A stretch of DNA of 64,000 bases, taken from Bdellovibrio sp. 22V (GTDB lineage Bacteria; Bdellovibrionota; Bdellovibrionia; Bdellovibrionales; Bdellovibrionaceae). The stretch is from assembly GCF_030169785.1 (NCBI RefSeq), contig NZ_CP125854.1:310001-374000 (forward strand), given 5' to 3'. Shown here in pieces: positions 7,220 through 12,834 of the stretch. The stretch's first letter is position 1. Every line of letters starts with the position of its first letter. The translations under genes and the position numbers were made by a program. Under the pieces are notes generated by a model. That model saw only the letters and a program-made list of their open reading frames with translations. It ran no database searches and had not been told where the DNA came from.

Positions 7220-7969
7220 GTGTCTAAGCAGTGGGTTCTGGTCCGAGGAATTATGAGCGAGGCTTTTCACTGGTGGGATTTTCTTCCTCAGTTGCAAGAG
7301 CGCTTTCCTCAGGATCAGTTCCACACGGCCGACATTTTGGGGAATGGGCGGCATTTTCAACACCATACGCCCATTAGCGTTCGAAAAAACATTCAAGCTC
7401 TTCGCAGCCAAGTGCCCGCCGAAGGAAAGAAGATCCTTATGGGATTTTCTTTGGGCGGAATGCTTTCTTTGGAGTGGGCCCATCATCACCCCGACGAAAT
7501 CGAAGCGATTGTTCTTATTAACTGCAGTCTTAGTAACTCAGCTTTTTATAAACGTATTACGCCTTATTCCCTGAAACACATCTTCAAGTCCGCAATGCAA
7601 AAGGACCTTTCCCGCCGAGAGCAAATGATCTTAGAGATGACGACAACAGGAATGCCGAAAGAACGTATTCAAGAAATTGCGATGCAATGGGGTCCGCGTG
7701 GGCAAGAGTATCCCGTGAAACCAATCAACTTTTTACGGCAAATCATGCTGGCGTCACAAATTCCACAAAGACCACAGCCACCGGCACCGGTGTTAGTGTT
7801 ATCCTCCGGAAAAGATAGAGTCGTACATCCCGATTGTTCCGAGAAAATCGCAAAGACCTGGAATCTGCCTCTTGTTCGTCATGAAGAGGCCGGGCACGAT
7901 CTGACCCTGAATGATCCCCAATGGGTTATCAAGCAAGTCAGCCACTTTCTTAGACACCATTCATCGTAA
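7220..7969 (+). CDS. alpha/beta hydrolase
   Basis: 249 residues, GTG start immediately after the GST stop with no gap. Nucleophile elbow GFSLGG (serine nucleophile), RVVHPDC (acid region) and EEAGHDL (catalytic His) give a complete triad. No signal peptide, so cytoplasmic. Likely an esterase or lipase-type hydrolase; substrate unknown. Last gene of the exporter/GST operon, converging with the PAP2 gene after 7 bases with no visible terminator between. Confidence 0.85.
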   Translation: MSKQWVLVRGIMSEAFHWWDFLPQLQERFPQDQFHTADILGNGRHFQHHTPISVRKNIQALRSQVPAEGKKILMGFSLGGMLSLEWAHHHPDEIEAIVLINCSLSNSAFYKRITPYSLKHIFKSAMQKDLSRREQMILEMTTTGMPKERIQEIAMQWGPRGQEYPVKPINFLRQIMLASQIPQRPQPPAPVLVLSSGKDRVVHPDCSEKIAKTWNLPLVRHEEAGHDLTLNDPQWVIKQVSHFLRHHSS

Positions 7970-7976
7970 TTAAGTA

Positions 7977-8612
7977 TTAAAGCGAAGCGATCCACGCATC
8001 AAGGGCTGGAGCCACACGCGACACAACGTCATGAGTCCACAACGCGGCAATGGCGCCGGCAAAAACATCCATCGTCCAATGCGCCCGCAGAAGAATCACC
8101 GTTGCGATTTCAAAAACGACAATGAAACACGCCAAAGCCATGTACATGCCGCCTCCCAACTGCGCGATTTCCAAAGCTCCCAAAACCGCCAAAGCCGTGT
8201 GACCTGAAAAGAACAGATCATTTGAAACATCATAGGTTACAAAAATCGAAGGCACTCCAGGGTTGCGCCAAATCATACCTTCGGGAGTTGGAAGTACTGT
8301 GATCGCCTGGTTGATTTGACGAAGCGTAAATAAAACGAGAAGTGCTAAAAGAGGACGAACCGTGTCGCCAAACAAAGTTTGTACGATCAGAAAAATCCCT
8401 ACCGCATCTATGACGAGTGAACTGGAAATTAAAAGTCCATTCGCCGCACGCGGAGAGTTGTTGAGATAAAGGCTCCACTTTTCCGTGAGCATGTGAATAA
8501 CGTCGCCGATACGATCTTTGAATTTCATTTGTCGACGCCCCAGAAGTTTCTGAGTGAACAACCACATTCCAATGGCAGCGACTGTCATTCCAATTTTAAT
8601 AGCTATTGTCAT
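7977..8612 (-). CDS. membrane PAP2 / sphingomyelin-synthase-like phosphatase
   Basis: 211 residues from ATG 8612 behind GCGGAGCC; the longer frame to 8663 lacks a ribosome site. About six hydrophobic segments. The active-site motifs FFSGHTALAV and LLRAHWTMDVF match the C-terminal PAP2_C group (SGHT plus HxxxDV), where two His and one Asp perform phosphoryl or phosphocholine transfer at the membrane. Relatives remodel lipid head groups. Bdellovibrio is known to carry phosphosphingolipids, so a lipid-modifying role fits, but substrate is inference. Confidence 0.75.
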   Translation of the reverse strand: MTIAIKIGMTVAAIGMWLFTQKLLGRRQMKFKDRIGDVIHMLTEKWSLYLNNSPRAANGLLISSSLVIDAVGIFLIVQTLFGDTVRPLLALLVLFTLRQINQAITVLPTPEGMIWRNPGVPSIFVTYDVSNDLFFSGHTALAVLGALEIAQLGGGMYMALACFIVVFEIATVILLRAHWTMDVFAGAIAALWTHDVVSRVAPALDAWIASL

Positions 8613-8835
8613 ATCGGCTCCGCACGTTCTCTCGAAATTATCTGCACTCTTAAGGAATAGCAAGAGGACGATGGTTTTGACAGGATCGCCGAAGAAATGT
8701 CACTCATCTCAGCCTGAGACAAAATTCCCGTCTGTTCCCGGAGTCTCCTGGAATATAGAGGCTTCCATAGCATCGCCTTTGGCACTCCCCTTGCCTCTAT
8801 TCAGGTTGAGACACTTTGCGTGTTGGAGGTATTCC

Positions 8836-11800
8836 ATGAAACGTCCATCTAAATACGGCCGCATCTTTACAGCAGGAATGATTGCCGGAAGTTTGACTTT
8901 GGGCTCTATCACTCCTGCCCATGCTCTGACATTGCCTTGGACTAAAAAGGCACAAGCGGCGACGCAAGCCCAACAAATCCAAACTGTTGTGTTGGCTGTG
9001 GATGGTTTCAGTTACTACGCTTTCCTCCAAGCGCAAAAACAAGGTCTCTTTAAGGAATTTATCAGTGCCGGCGCACACGTCGCACCTTTTCCTTCCATGA
9101 CGGATTTATCCTGGGCAACCGTTACTAACACGGCAGAGCTCTTTGGAGCTGCAGGAAGAATCAAATCCGTGGAAGCGACTTATTTTGACGAATCCTCTCA
9201 ATCCATCCAGGGCGACCCTCGCGATTATTATCGTCGTTTGGCTTTTCCTAAGTATTACATGGGCGCCTTCGATACGTTCTTCAATCCTTATGTTGAAGCC
9301 TTGATGTATTTCCCCACAGAAGAAGTTCCAAAATTGGAAGTGAAAACAGTTGTCGACGATTTGCTCTCTGCGAAACCTAAGAAATTTATGACAGGTTACA
9401 TCGGTGCGGTCGATTCTACGGCGCACACACAATTAAATCGCCTCTATCCGATTCTTAAAACGGTCGACTCAGAAGTAAAACGTCTTATGAAGGGCTTTAA
9501 AGAAAAAGGTCAAGACGTTGAAATCGTCCTTGTCTCTGATCACGGAAATATCGGCCGTTTCAGCGAAGGCCAACCGGAAGTGGAGCTTGAAGGCGTTGAA
9601 GTCGCTGACGTGGTTAAACGCGCGGGACTTAATTTCGTTCAACAGCTTAAAAATGAAAAAGACGTGGCCATGCCTTTGTTGGCGCTGGGCTCGTGGGCTC
9701 CTGTTTACCTTCATGATCGCAAACAAATGCCGGCTCTTATTGAAGAGTTCCGTAAAGAAATCTGGTTCGATATGGCGGTTTACATCAACCGCAATTCCGC
9801 TCGCGACACTTTGATGACTGTGATCACTCAAAGGGGTGAGGCGAAAGTTCAATACGACAAACAAACAAAAAAATACTTTTACTATCCAGTGACGGGCAAT
9901 CCGCTTTTCCTCGCCAAGGATCTTCATTCGACGAAATCCGCTCCTATTGCAATGGATGAGGCCCAAGTACAAAAAGCTTCTGAAGGGTCAAAATATCCGG
10001 ATGCGATCTATCGTATCATCGAGTCGGCCTCTGAAAGAAACTTCGATTTCCCTGATTTCATTCTGACAACAAAAGATGGCACATTCATCAAAAACTCACT
10101 GGGTGCTTTTGCAAAGATGTACCGCACGCATGGTTCTTTGACGGCGGCTTCGTCTTTTGGGCTCTTGGCTTCTACGAAACGAAAAGTTCCGGGGCAGATT
10201 CGCTCTAAAGACATCCTTTCTTTCGTCGGCGTCGATGCAAAAGATCTTTTCGCTGAAGCCGTACAAAAACATAACAACACGAACGATCAAGCTTTAAGAC
10301 AAGTTATCACGGACTACAAAAAAGGTATCAGAACGGACGCTAAGGACCTTAGCCAGCAACGCATCTTCCGCCACATCACGAAATTCGTGGCGGACACTCG
10401 TCCTTACTTCGTGGTTTCTGAGATTCAAAGCTTTATGGACGCCTTCAAATTCGATCCGTTTAAAGATCCATCGGGCCGCAGCCTGACGCCGATGAATTTT
10501 GACGTGACGAAGTTTGATGTGAAAACAATGATTTCTCCGGAAGACATTGGTTCTCTGACGGATGCTGTTCTAACGGCAGGTTCTGTCGAGAATCTTATGA
10601 ACGATCCGCGCATTGAAAAGCTTAAAGAAAAAGTGGGCATGCTGCAGGATCAGAAAACAGCAAACCTCGATCTTCAGCATGTTGATCTGAATAAGAGCGA
10701 AGACTTCATCGATAAAATCAAAGGCTATGTGCTCCCTGCAAAGAGAGCCGTCATGAAAATGTACCAAATGCCGTTCCTTCTTGAGAACTCTATCGTTATT
10801 CAGGAAAAACCTTACCTTCCTGACACACGCGATCTGCAATTCGCAAGACAATGGGTTAGCAAACAAAGCTCTGCAACGAAATCCTTCAAATCTTTGACGG
10901 CAACGTCACAAGGGCAGATCTCGACGGCGCAGTCTCTTCTTAAAGAAACAATTAAGGAAGCCGAATTTGAAGGCCGCATTTATCCGACACCTTTAACGAA
11001 GATCTACAACAGTAAACTTGACGACGTCACAATTGTTTATGTGCCTGGTATCTATAACTCCATCTTCGACAAAGAGATTTTCAGTCTTGGTCTGAGCGCC
11101 TTGAGCGACGAGATGGGTTTGCGCGTGATCCAACCGCCGGTAGAAAGCACATGTGCGAGTGATGTTAACGCCGATATCATTCTTAATTATCTCCAAAAAG
11201 ACTACCAAGACCGTGTAAAACGCGGCCACAAGGCTCCGAAATATCTTTTCTTCTCTTACTCGAAAGGTGCTGTCGATACGCTTCACGCTTTCTTGAAGCG
11301 TCCTCATTTTATCTCGTCTTCCGTGAAGGGAATGGTGGCGATTGCGGCTCCTCTTCACGGTTCGAGCATTTTGAACACGACGGACGTTCCTTTCGCATTG
11401 GTTTCCGCATTGACAGAAAATGAAGGTCCGGAAATCTGCAAAGAGAAAACAGCTTCAAAATCAATCACTCCAACCGCGATGGATGCATTCTGGAGAAAGA
11501 ACGAAAGAACTTTGACTGGTTTGACTCGTTACTTCTCTGTGACTTTTGAAAGTTCTCCGGAAGATTCGCACATCTTCATGAAAGCGACGAAGTTGATCGG
11601 TCAGTTTGACGAAGACAATGACGGTGTTGTGACGGTTTCTTCATCTAAATTCCCTGCGAAATTGAAAGCGGTGGATCTTGGGACAATCCATGCCGACCAC
11701 TTGGCGGGTATTCTTTCTTCTCGCTTCAACCAAAAAGCGTTCATGAAAGGTCTGACAAGCACGTTGGCTGAGCTTAATATTGAGAATGACAAGAATAACT

Positions 11801-12834
11801 TCGAGTGGAACACCAACGTCATTCTTGCGGCTGCAAACGCAAACGCTTTGAAAAGCAAAACCTACTTCCGTATGAAATCACCGGGCGTCGTTGAACAATT
11901 CAGCGTTACCGGCAAAAATCTTGTCGAGTTCCATCCTTACGGTACGCCGTACGAACTCAACCTTCAGATCTTGCCGAAGATCAACGACCCGGCTGACAGC
12001 TATGAAGTAAAAACGAAACTTCCGCAATCGGCTCTTCGTTATGACCCTTACAATGTTTTGGATGTGGCAAAGCTCGGTGATGTGATGGCGGCGGTGCGTG
12101 TTTCTCCGGCGACTCAGCAAAACATGCCTGAGGGAATTAACATCGAGTACGCGCATACGAACATGGTTCACTTCCGCATGGATCACCAGTTCAACTATGA
12201 GTCTCGCTCTCCAGGTGGATTGGACGACAACAAAGACTTCGGTTACATCACTTCCGAATTTGAAGGTGAAAAAGACTGGGCGTTGATGAGAAGTAAAAAC
12301 AACTCTATTCGCATGACGACGTTAGCGTATCGTTTCTCCCCACTCGATTTCTCTAAGATGTCGTTGAAGATGGCGGTAACAAAGGATGTAACGGGTGCTG
12401 ATCCAGTAAAAGGAAAAACCGGAAAAGACGATTCTGCTTTCCAAGTATGGTTTACGATCCGTAACGGCCGCGCGAACGGCGATAGATCGACAATTGATGC
12501 TAAGAACGACAAAGTCTTCTTGTTCGGCTACTACTACGCAGGCGCCGTTCCTGGAGAAAATCGCAAGGCCGGCGACATCTTTGAAAACTGGTACTCGAAC
12601 AAGAACGTCGTGGTTGCGACTCTTCCAGAAGCAAAACAATTGTTGCTGAACAATCCGGATCAACTTGGCAAAGCTCAGCTTTACCAGCGCAACTTAGCGG
12701 AAGACCTCAAAAAGGCCTTCCCCGACAAGAATGTCGCTGACATGGACATCGTGGCGATCACGATCCAACACGACTCGAACGACACAGAGTCGCAGTCAGA
12801 AACATTCTTCAAAAGCCTCAAATTCGCACCATAA
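8836..12834 (+). CDS. exported phosphodiesterase-like / lipase-like fusion protein
   Basis: 1,332 residues from ATG 8836 (TTGGAGGTATTCC ribosome site); signal peptide to about residue 29 (THAHA-type end PAHALT). Domain 1, roughly residues 45-560, is an alkaline-phosphatase/nucleotide-pyrophosphatase fold with the full metal set visible: D56, T89 (candidate nucleophile), D193, H197, D235 and H236. Domain 2, roughly 720-980, is an alpha/beta hydrolase: FSYSKGAVD gives S809 in an S-x-S-x-G elbow, D929 in DNDGVVTV and H952/H955 in IHADH. Residues ~980-1332 are unassigned. Both reactions would occur outside the cytoplasm, possibly on prey lipids. Fusion of these two enzyme types is unusual. Confidence 0.8.
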   Translation: MKRPSKYGRIFTAGMIAGSLTLGSITPAHALTLPWTKKAQAATQAQQIQTVVLAVDGFSYYAFLQAQKQGLFKEFISAGAHVAPFPSMTDLSWATVTNTAELFGAAGRIKSVEATYFDESSQSIQGDPRDYYRRLAFPKYYMGAFDTFFNPYVEALMYFPTEEVPKLEVKTVVDDLLSAKPKKFMTGYIGAVDSTAHTQLNRLYPILKTVDSEVKRLMKGFKEKGQDVEIVLVSDHGNIGRFSEGQPEVELEGVEVADVVKRAGLNFVQQLKNEKDVAMPLLALGSWAPVYLHDRKQMPALIEEFRKEIWFDMAVYINRNSARDTLMTVITQRGEAKVQYDKQTKKYFYYPVTGNPLFLAKDLHSTKSAPIAMDEAQVQKASEGSKYPDAIYRIIESASERNFDFPDFILTTKDGTFIKNSLGAFAKMYRTHGSLTAASSFGLLASTKRKVPGQIRSKDILSFVGVDAKDLFAEAVQKHNNTNDQALRQVITDYKKGIRTDAKDLSQQRIFRHITKFVADTRPYFVVSEIQSFMDAFKFDPFKDPSGRSLTPMNFDVTKFDVKTMISPEDIGSLTDAVLTAGSVENLMNDPRIEKLKEKVGMLQDQKTANLDLQHVDLNKSEDFIDKIKGYVLPAKRAVMKMYQMPFLLENSIVIQEKPYLPDTRDLQFARQWVSKQSSATKSFKSLTATSQGQISTAQSLLKETIKEAEFEGRIYPTPLTKIYNSKLDDVTIVYVPGIYNSIFDKEIFSLGLSALSDEMGLRVIQPPVESTCASDVNADIILNYLQKDYQDRVKRGHKAPKYLFFSYSKGAVDTLHAFLKRPHFISSSVKGMVAIAAPLHGSSILNTTDVPFALVSALTENEGPEICKEKTASKSITPTAMDAFWRKNERTLTGLTRYFSVTFESSPEDSHIFMKATKLIGQFDEDNDGVVTVSSSKFPAKLKAVDLGTIHADHLAGILSSRFNQKAFMKGLTSTLAELNIENDKNNFEWNTNVILAAANANALKSKTYFRMKSPGVVEQFSVTGKNLVEFHPYGTPYELNLQILPKINDPADSYEVKTKLPQSALRYDPYNVLDVAKLGDVMAAVRVSPATQQNMPEGINIEYAHTNMVHFRMDHQFNYESRSPGGLDDNKDFGYITSEFEGEKDWALMRSKNNSIRMTTLAYRFSPLDFSKMSLKMAVTKDVTGADPVKGKTGKDDSAFQVWFTIRNGRANGDRSTIDAKNDKVFLFGYYYAGAVPGENRKAGDIFENWYSNKNVVVATLPEAKQLLLNNPDQLGKAQLYQRNLAEDLKKAFPDKNVADMDIVAITIQHDSNDTESQSETFFKSLKFAP

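Follow-up and report, generated by a model that had tools for sequence, protein, structure and literature searches.

Organization of the locus

The window, a stretch of 64,000 nucleotides from Bdellovibrio sp. 22V (NZ_CP125854.1, positions 310,001 to 374,000), contains a gene for a fusion protein of 1,332 residues. The features of the locus, in coordinates of the window, are:

7220..7969, + strand: gene for a 249-residue alpha/beta hydrolase (esterase; PF00561, E 7e-14)
7977..8612, - strand: gene for a PAP2_C/plant-PDCT-like membrane lipid head-group transferase or phosphatase (PF24788, E 4e-13; PF14360, E 3e-7)
8697..8721, + strand: conserved upstream element ATGTCAC..YTCA-N3-TGARACA, a possible activator binding site
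8780..8795, + strand: sigma-54-type -24/-12 promoter TGGCACTCCCCTTGCC (TGGCAY-N5-TTGCC)
8836..12834, + strand: fusion gene, 1,332 residues (ORF call; orthologues in related genomes)
8836..8922, + strand: Sec signal peptide as read from the sequence, residues 1-29, likely cleavage after A-H-A
8977..10215, + strand: NPP/alkaline-phosphatase-type phosphodiesterase domain, residues 48-460 (PF01663, model, fold match)
9001 (D56), 9100 (T89), 9412 (D193), 9424 (H197), 9538-9543 (D235-H236), 10129 (H432), + strand: metal-site codons
10216..10905, + strand: helical linker of uncertain fold, residues 461-690 (pLDDT mostly 30-60 in both overlapping models)
10906..11835, + strand: lipase-fold alpha/beta hydrolase, residues 691-1000 (5d8m profile, fold match)
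11260 (S809), 11620 (D929), 11698 (H955), + strand: triad codons (triad aligned with 5d8m)
11953..12831, + strand: C-terminal beta-sandwich, residues 1040-1332 (strands in the model; Foldseek)
12547-12816, + strand: DUF3047-like stretch (weak profile match)

A sequence-only reading had assigned an open reading frame of 1,332 residues to 8836-12834, and the sequence bears this out. The frame stays open back to a GTG at 8554, ahead of the ATG at 8836. The latter is the likely start because it is preceded by a GGAGG site at 8826-8830 and because a conserved promoter lies directly 5' of it. The N-terminus shows a basic start, a hydrophobic stretch and an AxA motif, and the orthologues are alike in the alignment. 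Export, which the same reading had claimed, is supported by this Sec-type sequence; the protein is expected to be exported via the putative Sec signal peptide.

The fusion protein consists of four parts: a phosphodiesterase, a helical linker, a lipase-fold hydrolase and a C-terminal beta-sandwich. Searches with the whole protein yielded only two Pfam families, PF01663 and, below threshold, DUF3047, while an NCBIfam search gave no matches. The structure was predicted in two overlapping AlphaFold2 models of residues 30-720 and 480-1332 with alignments of window-family proteins as input; the mean pLDDT of the second was 68.6. Both enzyme folds that had been read from the sequence were recovered in the predictions, an ENPP6/ENPP7-type fold with Z 21-23 and the fold of MGS0156 with Z 21.4.

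The phosphodiesterase domain

PF01663 matched the first half of the protein with 32-34 bits, above its curated cut-off of 23, and 24 of 25 aligned members matched it at E<=0.01. The two-metal pattern D, T/S, DxxxH, DH, H is complete (D56, T/S89, D193-x3-H197, D235-H236, H432). In the alignment D56, D193, H197, D235, H236 and H432 were invariant in 19/19 full-length orthologues, and residue 89, the nucleophile position, was T or S. The metal site proposed earlier (D56, T89, D193, H197, D235, H236) is thus conserved with T or S at 89, yet its seventh ligand, H432, had been overlooked. Three distant full-length relatives with 35-37% identity have kept all catalytic residues of both domains.

The core of the domain was modelled with a pLDDT of about 90. 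Its best fold match was ENPP6 (Z 22.6, rmsd 3.6 over 305 residues), followed by ENPP7 (Z 20.9), Xac NPP (20.7) and phosphonoacetate hydrolase (20.0); nucleotide-type NPPs of bacteria and animals scored within 2-3 Z of ENPP6. Because these scores are so close together the modelled fold alone leaves the substrate unnamed, and the near-equal values of Xac NPP and phosphonoacetate hydrolase mean that it cannot tell lipid from nucleotide or phosphonate substrates. ENPP6 and ENPP7 act on choline phosphodiesters of lipids. With these two enzymes and Xac NPP, all of the PF01663 type, the domain has in common the fold, the two-metal site with its ligands and the nucleophile. It differs from them in identity (12-15%), in being fused to a lipase and in the sequence around the nucleophile, where the full-length members carry T/S-D/E-x-S-W directly after it. 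This segment is presumably unlike the nucleotide-pocket motif of NPPs. Taken together, profile, two-metal site and fold all agree that the first half is an NPP-type phosphodiesterase with predicted activity.

Stand-alone phosphodiesterases of about 410-470 residues were seen in other families of the same order (six loci, L021-L026). They keep the metal ligands at about 19-25% identity and have Ser as the nucleophile; most possess an exported-type N-terminus.

The lipase-fold domain and the C-terminal beta-sandwich

None of the 19 orthologues matched any Pfam alpha/beta-hydrolase family at E<=0.01, and the lipase domain is a member of a family without a Pfam entry. A profile of the domain matched 5d8m, the structure of MGS0156, with E 3.9e-8 and placed S809, D929 and H955 opposite its Ser, Asp and His. 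Phmmer against solved structures produced a single match, again MGS0156 (E 9e-5, residues 803-967). MGS0156 was also the top fold match (Z 21.4, rmsd 3.5 over 255 residues), followed by a next match at Z 17.0 and classical bacterial lipases at Z 15-17. The second half, earlier claimed to be an alpha/beta hydrolase, therefore has this fold in the model. The segments bearing D929 and H955 had a pLDDT <50, so that the geometry of the triad depends on the sequence alignment. S809, K810, G811, D929 and H955 were invariant in 19/19 full-length orthologues. The triad S809, D929, H955 of the sequence-only reading was therefore retained, while H952, offered as an alternative histidine, was rejected because residue 952 is H, K, N, P or T across the orthologues.

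The S-Y-S-K-G elbow had been pointed out as a departure from G-x-S-x-G. It is not unusual: the orthologues have either S or G at position 807, and many read GYSKG. The elbow of MGS0156 is THSKG and that of BlEst2 is SYSKG, identical to the one in the window. Since the S-K-G elbow is common to these solved lipases we regard it as a trait of this lipase group and not as a special feature of the fusion. MGS0156 (5d8m) and BlEst2 (6wpx/6wpy) share the lipase fold and the aligned Ser-Asp-His with the domain but are single enzymes of about 20% identity, whereas the lipase domain of the window lies mid-chain in a four-part protein. MGS0156 hydrolyses long-chain lipids and also breaks down polylactic acid and polycaprolactone (PMC5341072). 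We concluded that the second half is a lipase-fold alpha/beta hydrolase with a complete predicted triad.

The approximately 350 residues at the end that had been left unassigned are mostly a beta-sandwich in the model (the last ~290). This part was compared through Foldseek only, as the VIA-align rows of the second model concern the lipase domain; the GH11/GH12-type beta-sandwiches found denote a common fold only. The end of the DUF3047 profile (PF11249) matches the C-terminal beta strands. The window copy reached 21.6-25.3 bits, under the curated cut-off of 27, yet 18/19 orthologues matched at E<=0.01 with a best E of 2e-7. DUF3047 is a family without known function, and we found no literature that names it together with Bdellovibrio.

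Promoter and upstream region

TGGCAY-N5-TTGCC was by far the most conserved stretch upstream of the fusion in 16 orthologous regions. Ten of its 16 columns were invariant in 16/16 regions compared with a mean of 0.8 in other 16-column windows. It fits the sigma-54 criteria with TGGCAC-N5-TTGC and 12 bases from GG to GC, and RpoN is encoded in the genome (E 7e-66). An exact match to TGGCAYNNNNYTTGCC occurred once in the window's genome, and a reversed-pattern control likewise gave one hit. Furthermore, 10 columns between 8681 and 8720 were invariant in the 16 regions, and the element at 8697-8721 is a possible binding site for an activator protein. A search with the pattern of activator site plus promoter recovered the fusion gene in 9/10 genomes with extra matches in four genomes; it is not independent because the pattern was built from these same promoters. 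The sigma-54-type motif was not present at three more distant loci (L018, L019, L030). A Pho-box-like repeat gave no consistent signal upstream, with 1/19 at p 0.015 and the others not significant.

Distribution of the fusion

Among 61 genomes, i.e. that of the window and 60 relatives, 20 carried the fusion: 17 of 24 Bdellovibrio and three from other genera of the family. These include one fragment at a contig end and one copy split over two contig ends. The gene was absent from 7/24 Bdellovibrio, from most other Bdellovibrionaceae and from most other genomes of the order. Thus the fusion is an accessory factor, and its patchy presence argues against an essential role in predation. All matches to the lipase domain in the order lay within ORFs of about 1,240-1,430 residues, i.e. 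every such match is a fusion. A draw of 340 genomes of the phylum added three more (G244, G346, G241), and no split form was found elsewhere in the phylum. The search for the domain pair that the sequence-only reading had suggested thus showed the two always fused, in 20 of the 61 genomes and the three distant ones. A contig scan with a single protein, which detects close relatives only, yielded seven loci, each of which belonged to Bdellovibrio, Bdellovibrionaceae or a 'Deltaproteobacteria' MAG.

Among stand-alone proteins, those most closely related to the lipase domain were hydrolases of about 400 residues in the same phylum (family f18, E down to 8e-33); in the 340-genome draw they were found in over 50 genomes from a single family. 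Unlike the fusion they lack the phosphodiesterase and the beta-sandwich and are located in a housekeeping cluster. At the 12 loci that were read (L068-L079) the hydrolase is clustered with genes resembling dnaX, ybaB and recR, with a roadblock-like gene and with the gene for a small MglA-like GTPase. The L068 protein matched no Pfam family.

In genome G168 a C-terminal remnant with several stop codons was seen (L183, L184; G168:C14:80670-81211), and the fusion gene appears to be decaying in this lineage.

Neighbouring genes

The PAP2_C gene occurred in 11 of the 61 genomes searched, always adjoining the fusion and never without it. Close copies of the esterase gene (52-78%) were found in the PAP2_C-bearing genomes, next to the PAP2_C gene. 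Fusion, PAP2_C/PDCT-like gene and esterase gene lay within about 1.1 kb in 12 genomes including that of the window; one of the other 11 (G087) was counted from one of the searches only. The linkage has been kept through rearrangement, in four gene orders or orientations and three genera, which supports a functional link; as the linked genomes are related by descent we assigned no probability to it.

The HD100 group lacks the PAP2_C gene and the close esterase copy; here the fusion has sixA-ppk on one side and, on the other, ppx, a porin-like gene, phoU and a response regulator/kinase pair. In the genome of the window ppx is 2.3 Mb away from the fusion, so the location in a phosphate cluster is specific to the HD100 group. 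At four loci (L080, L082, L088, L091) ppk, sixA, ppx, phoU and a PhoB/PhoR-like pair are clustered around the fusion, and a transposase-like gene adjoins it at L080 and L091. New in this work are the conserved promoter, the adjacency to the PAP2_C/PDCT and esterase genes and the location in a phosphate/polyphosphate cluster in the HD100 group.

The orthologue in B. bacteriovorus HD100

One of the genomes (G006) is presumably that of B. bacteriovorus HD100. Published anchors of HD100, namely the secreted deacetylase Bd0993, the ABC ATPase Bd0995 and the operon Bd0997-Bd1000, agree with its gene order, and counting onward puts the fusion at Bd1011-Bd1012. None of the other nearby HD100 genes tested was an alpha/beta hydrolase. 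By this gene counting the HD100 orthologue of the fusion is most likely Bd1012.

Bd1012, termed 'AB-hydrolase', is one of the proteins of the predator that Tyson et al. (2024) list from killed, uninvaded E. coli (PMC11003981). The authors caution that few peptides were obtained per protein and that some predator cells had burst (PMC11003981). From its genome position this protein of the empty-bdelloplast proteome is likely the direct orthologue, with 72% identity; the passages of that paper on Bd1012 contain no description of a phosphodiesterase half, a promoter or neighbours (PMC11003981). If the orthologue is indeed Bd1012, a use of the fusion against prey probably has outside support.

Proposed function

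We propose that the fusion is an exported hydrolase with two active sites which would dismantle phospholipids, most likely in the digestion of prey; we give this an even chance of being correct. Transcription would start at the RpoN (sigma-54) promoter, turned on by a putative activator. After Sec-dependent passage of the inner membrane the protein would be released to the periplasm and might plausibly move on from there into prey. The lipase domain (S809-D929-H955) would cleave acyl esters. The phosphodiesterase, with T89 as the nucleophile and metals at D56/D235/H236 and D193/H197/H432, would cleave the phosphodiester bond in that type of lipid or in its deacylated glycerophosphodiester, in whichever order the cuts may occur, and liberate head groups bearing phosphate. 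The beta-sandwich probably attaches the enzyme to a surface or substrate. We favor phospholipids because the two complete active sites stay invariant in relatives of as little as 35% identity, because ENPP6 and ENPP7 are among the nearest folds of the first half and MGS0156 is the nearest of the second, and because of the PAP2_C/PDCT-like and esterase neighbours and the phosphate cluster in the HD100 group. That the HD100 orthologue is likely Bd1012, a protein seen in killed E. coli cells that were uninvaded, favors prey digestion. A fuller scheme is rather improbable in all its parts and is put forward tentatively: an RpoN-switched enzyme delivered into prey would deacylate phospholipid and then cut the glycerophosphodiester, the predator regaining fatty acids, head groups and phosphate; the PDCT-like partner would reuse the head groups in many species, and the gene would be tied to phosphate storage in the HD100 group.

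The same neighbours can be read in another way. The fusion may remodel or recycle the envelope lipids of the predator itself in its periplasm, saving phosphate under nutrient control while the PDCT-like neighbour shifts head groups, with prey not being the target. The phosphate/polyphosphate surroundings in the HD100 group, the head-group transferase-like neighbour in other genomes and a patchy distribution not linked to predation would suit this reading, which we consider possible but rather improbable in view of the probable presence of Bd1012 in killed prey and the inconsistent Pho-box-like repeat.

It is unlikely that the fusion is a general digestive enzyme whose halves have no common substrate, with nucleotides or fragments of nucleic acid as substrates of the phosphodiesterase and, separately, acyl esters as those of the lipase. 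The long, poorly predicted linker means that the two sites may be independent, and the nucleotide-type NPPs are close in fold; on the other hand, the segment after the nucleophile is presumably not of the nucleotide-pocket type and the neighbours are of lipid type. That the lipase half is chiefly a polyester or cell-envelope ester hydrolase and not a phospholipase is very improbable. The polyester degradation by MGS0156, its nearest solved relative, speaks for it, but activity on synthetic polyesters is a poor guide to the natural substrate, and the attached phosphodiesterase points to a lipid that carries phosphate.

Thus we favor the view that the fusion acts on phospholipids of prey. To our knowledge, the genes for the breakdown and reuse of prey membrane lipids by Bdellovibrio are largely unassigned. 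A conserved single chain that joins a lipase to an ENPP6/7-type phosphodiesterase, and that was probably seen in killed prey, provides a concrete candidate gene.
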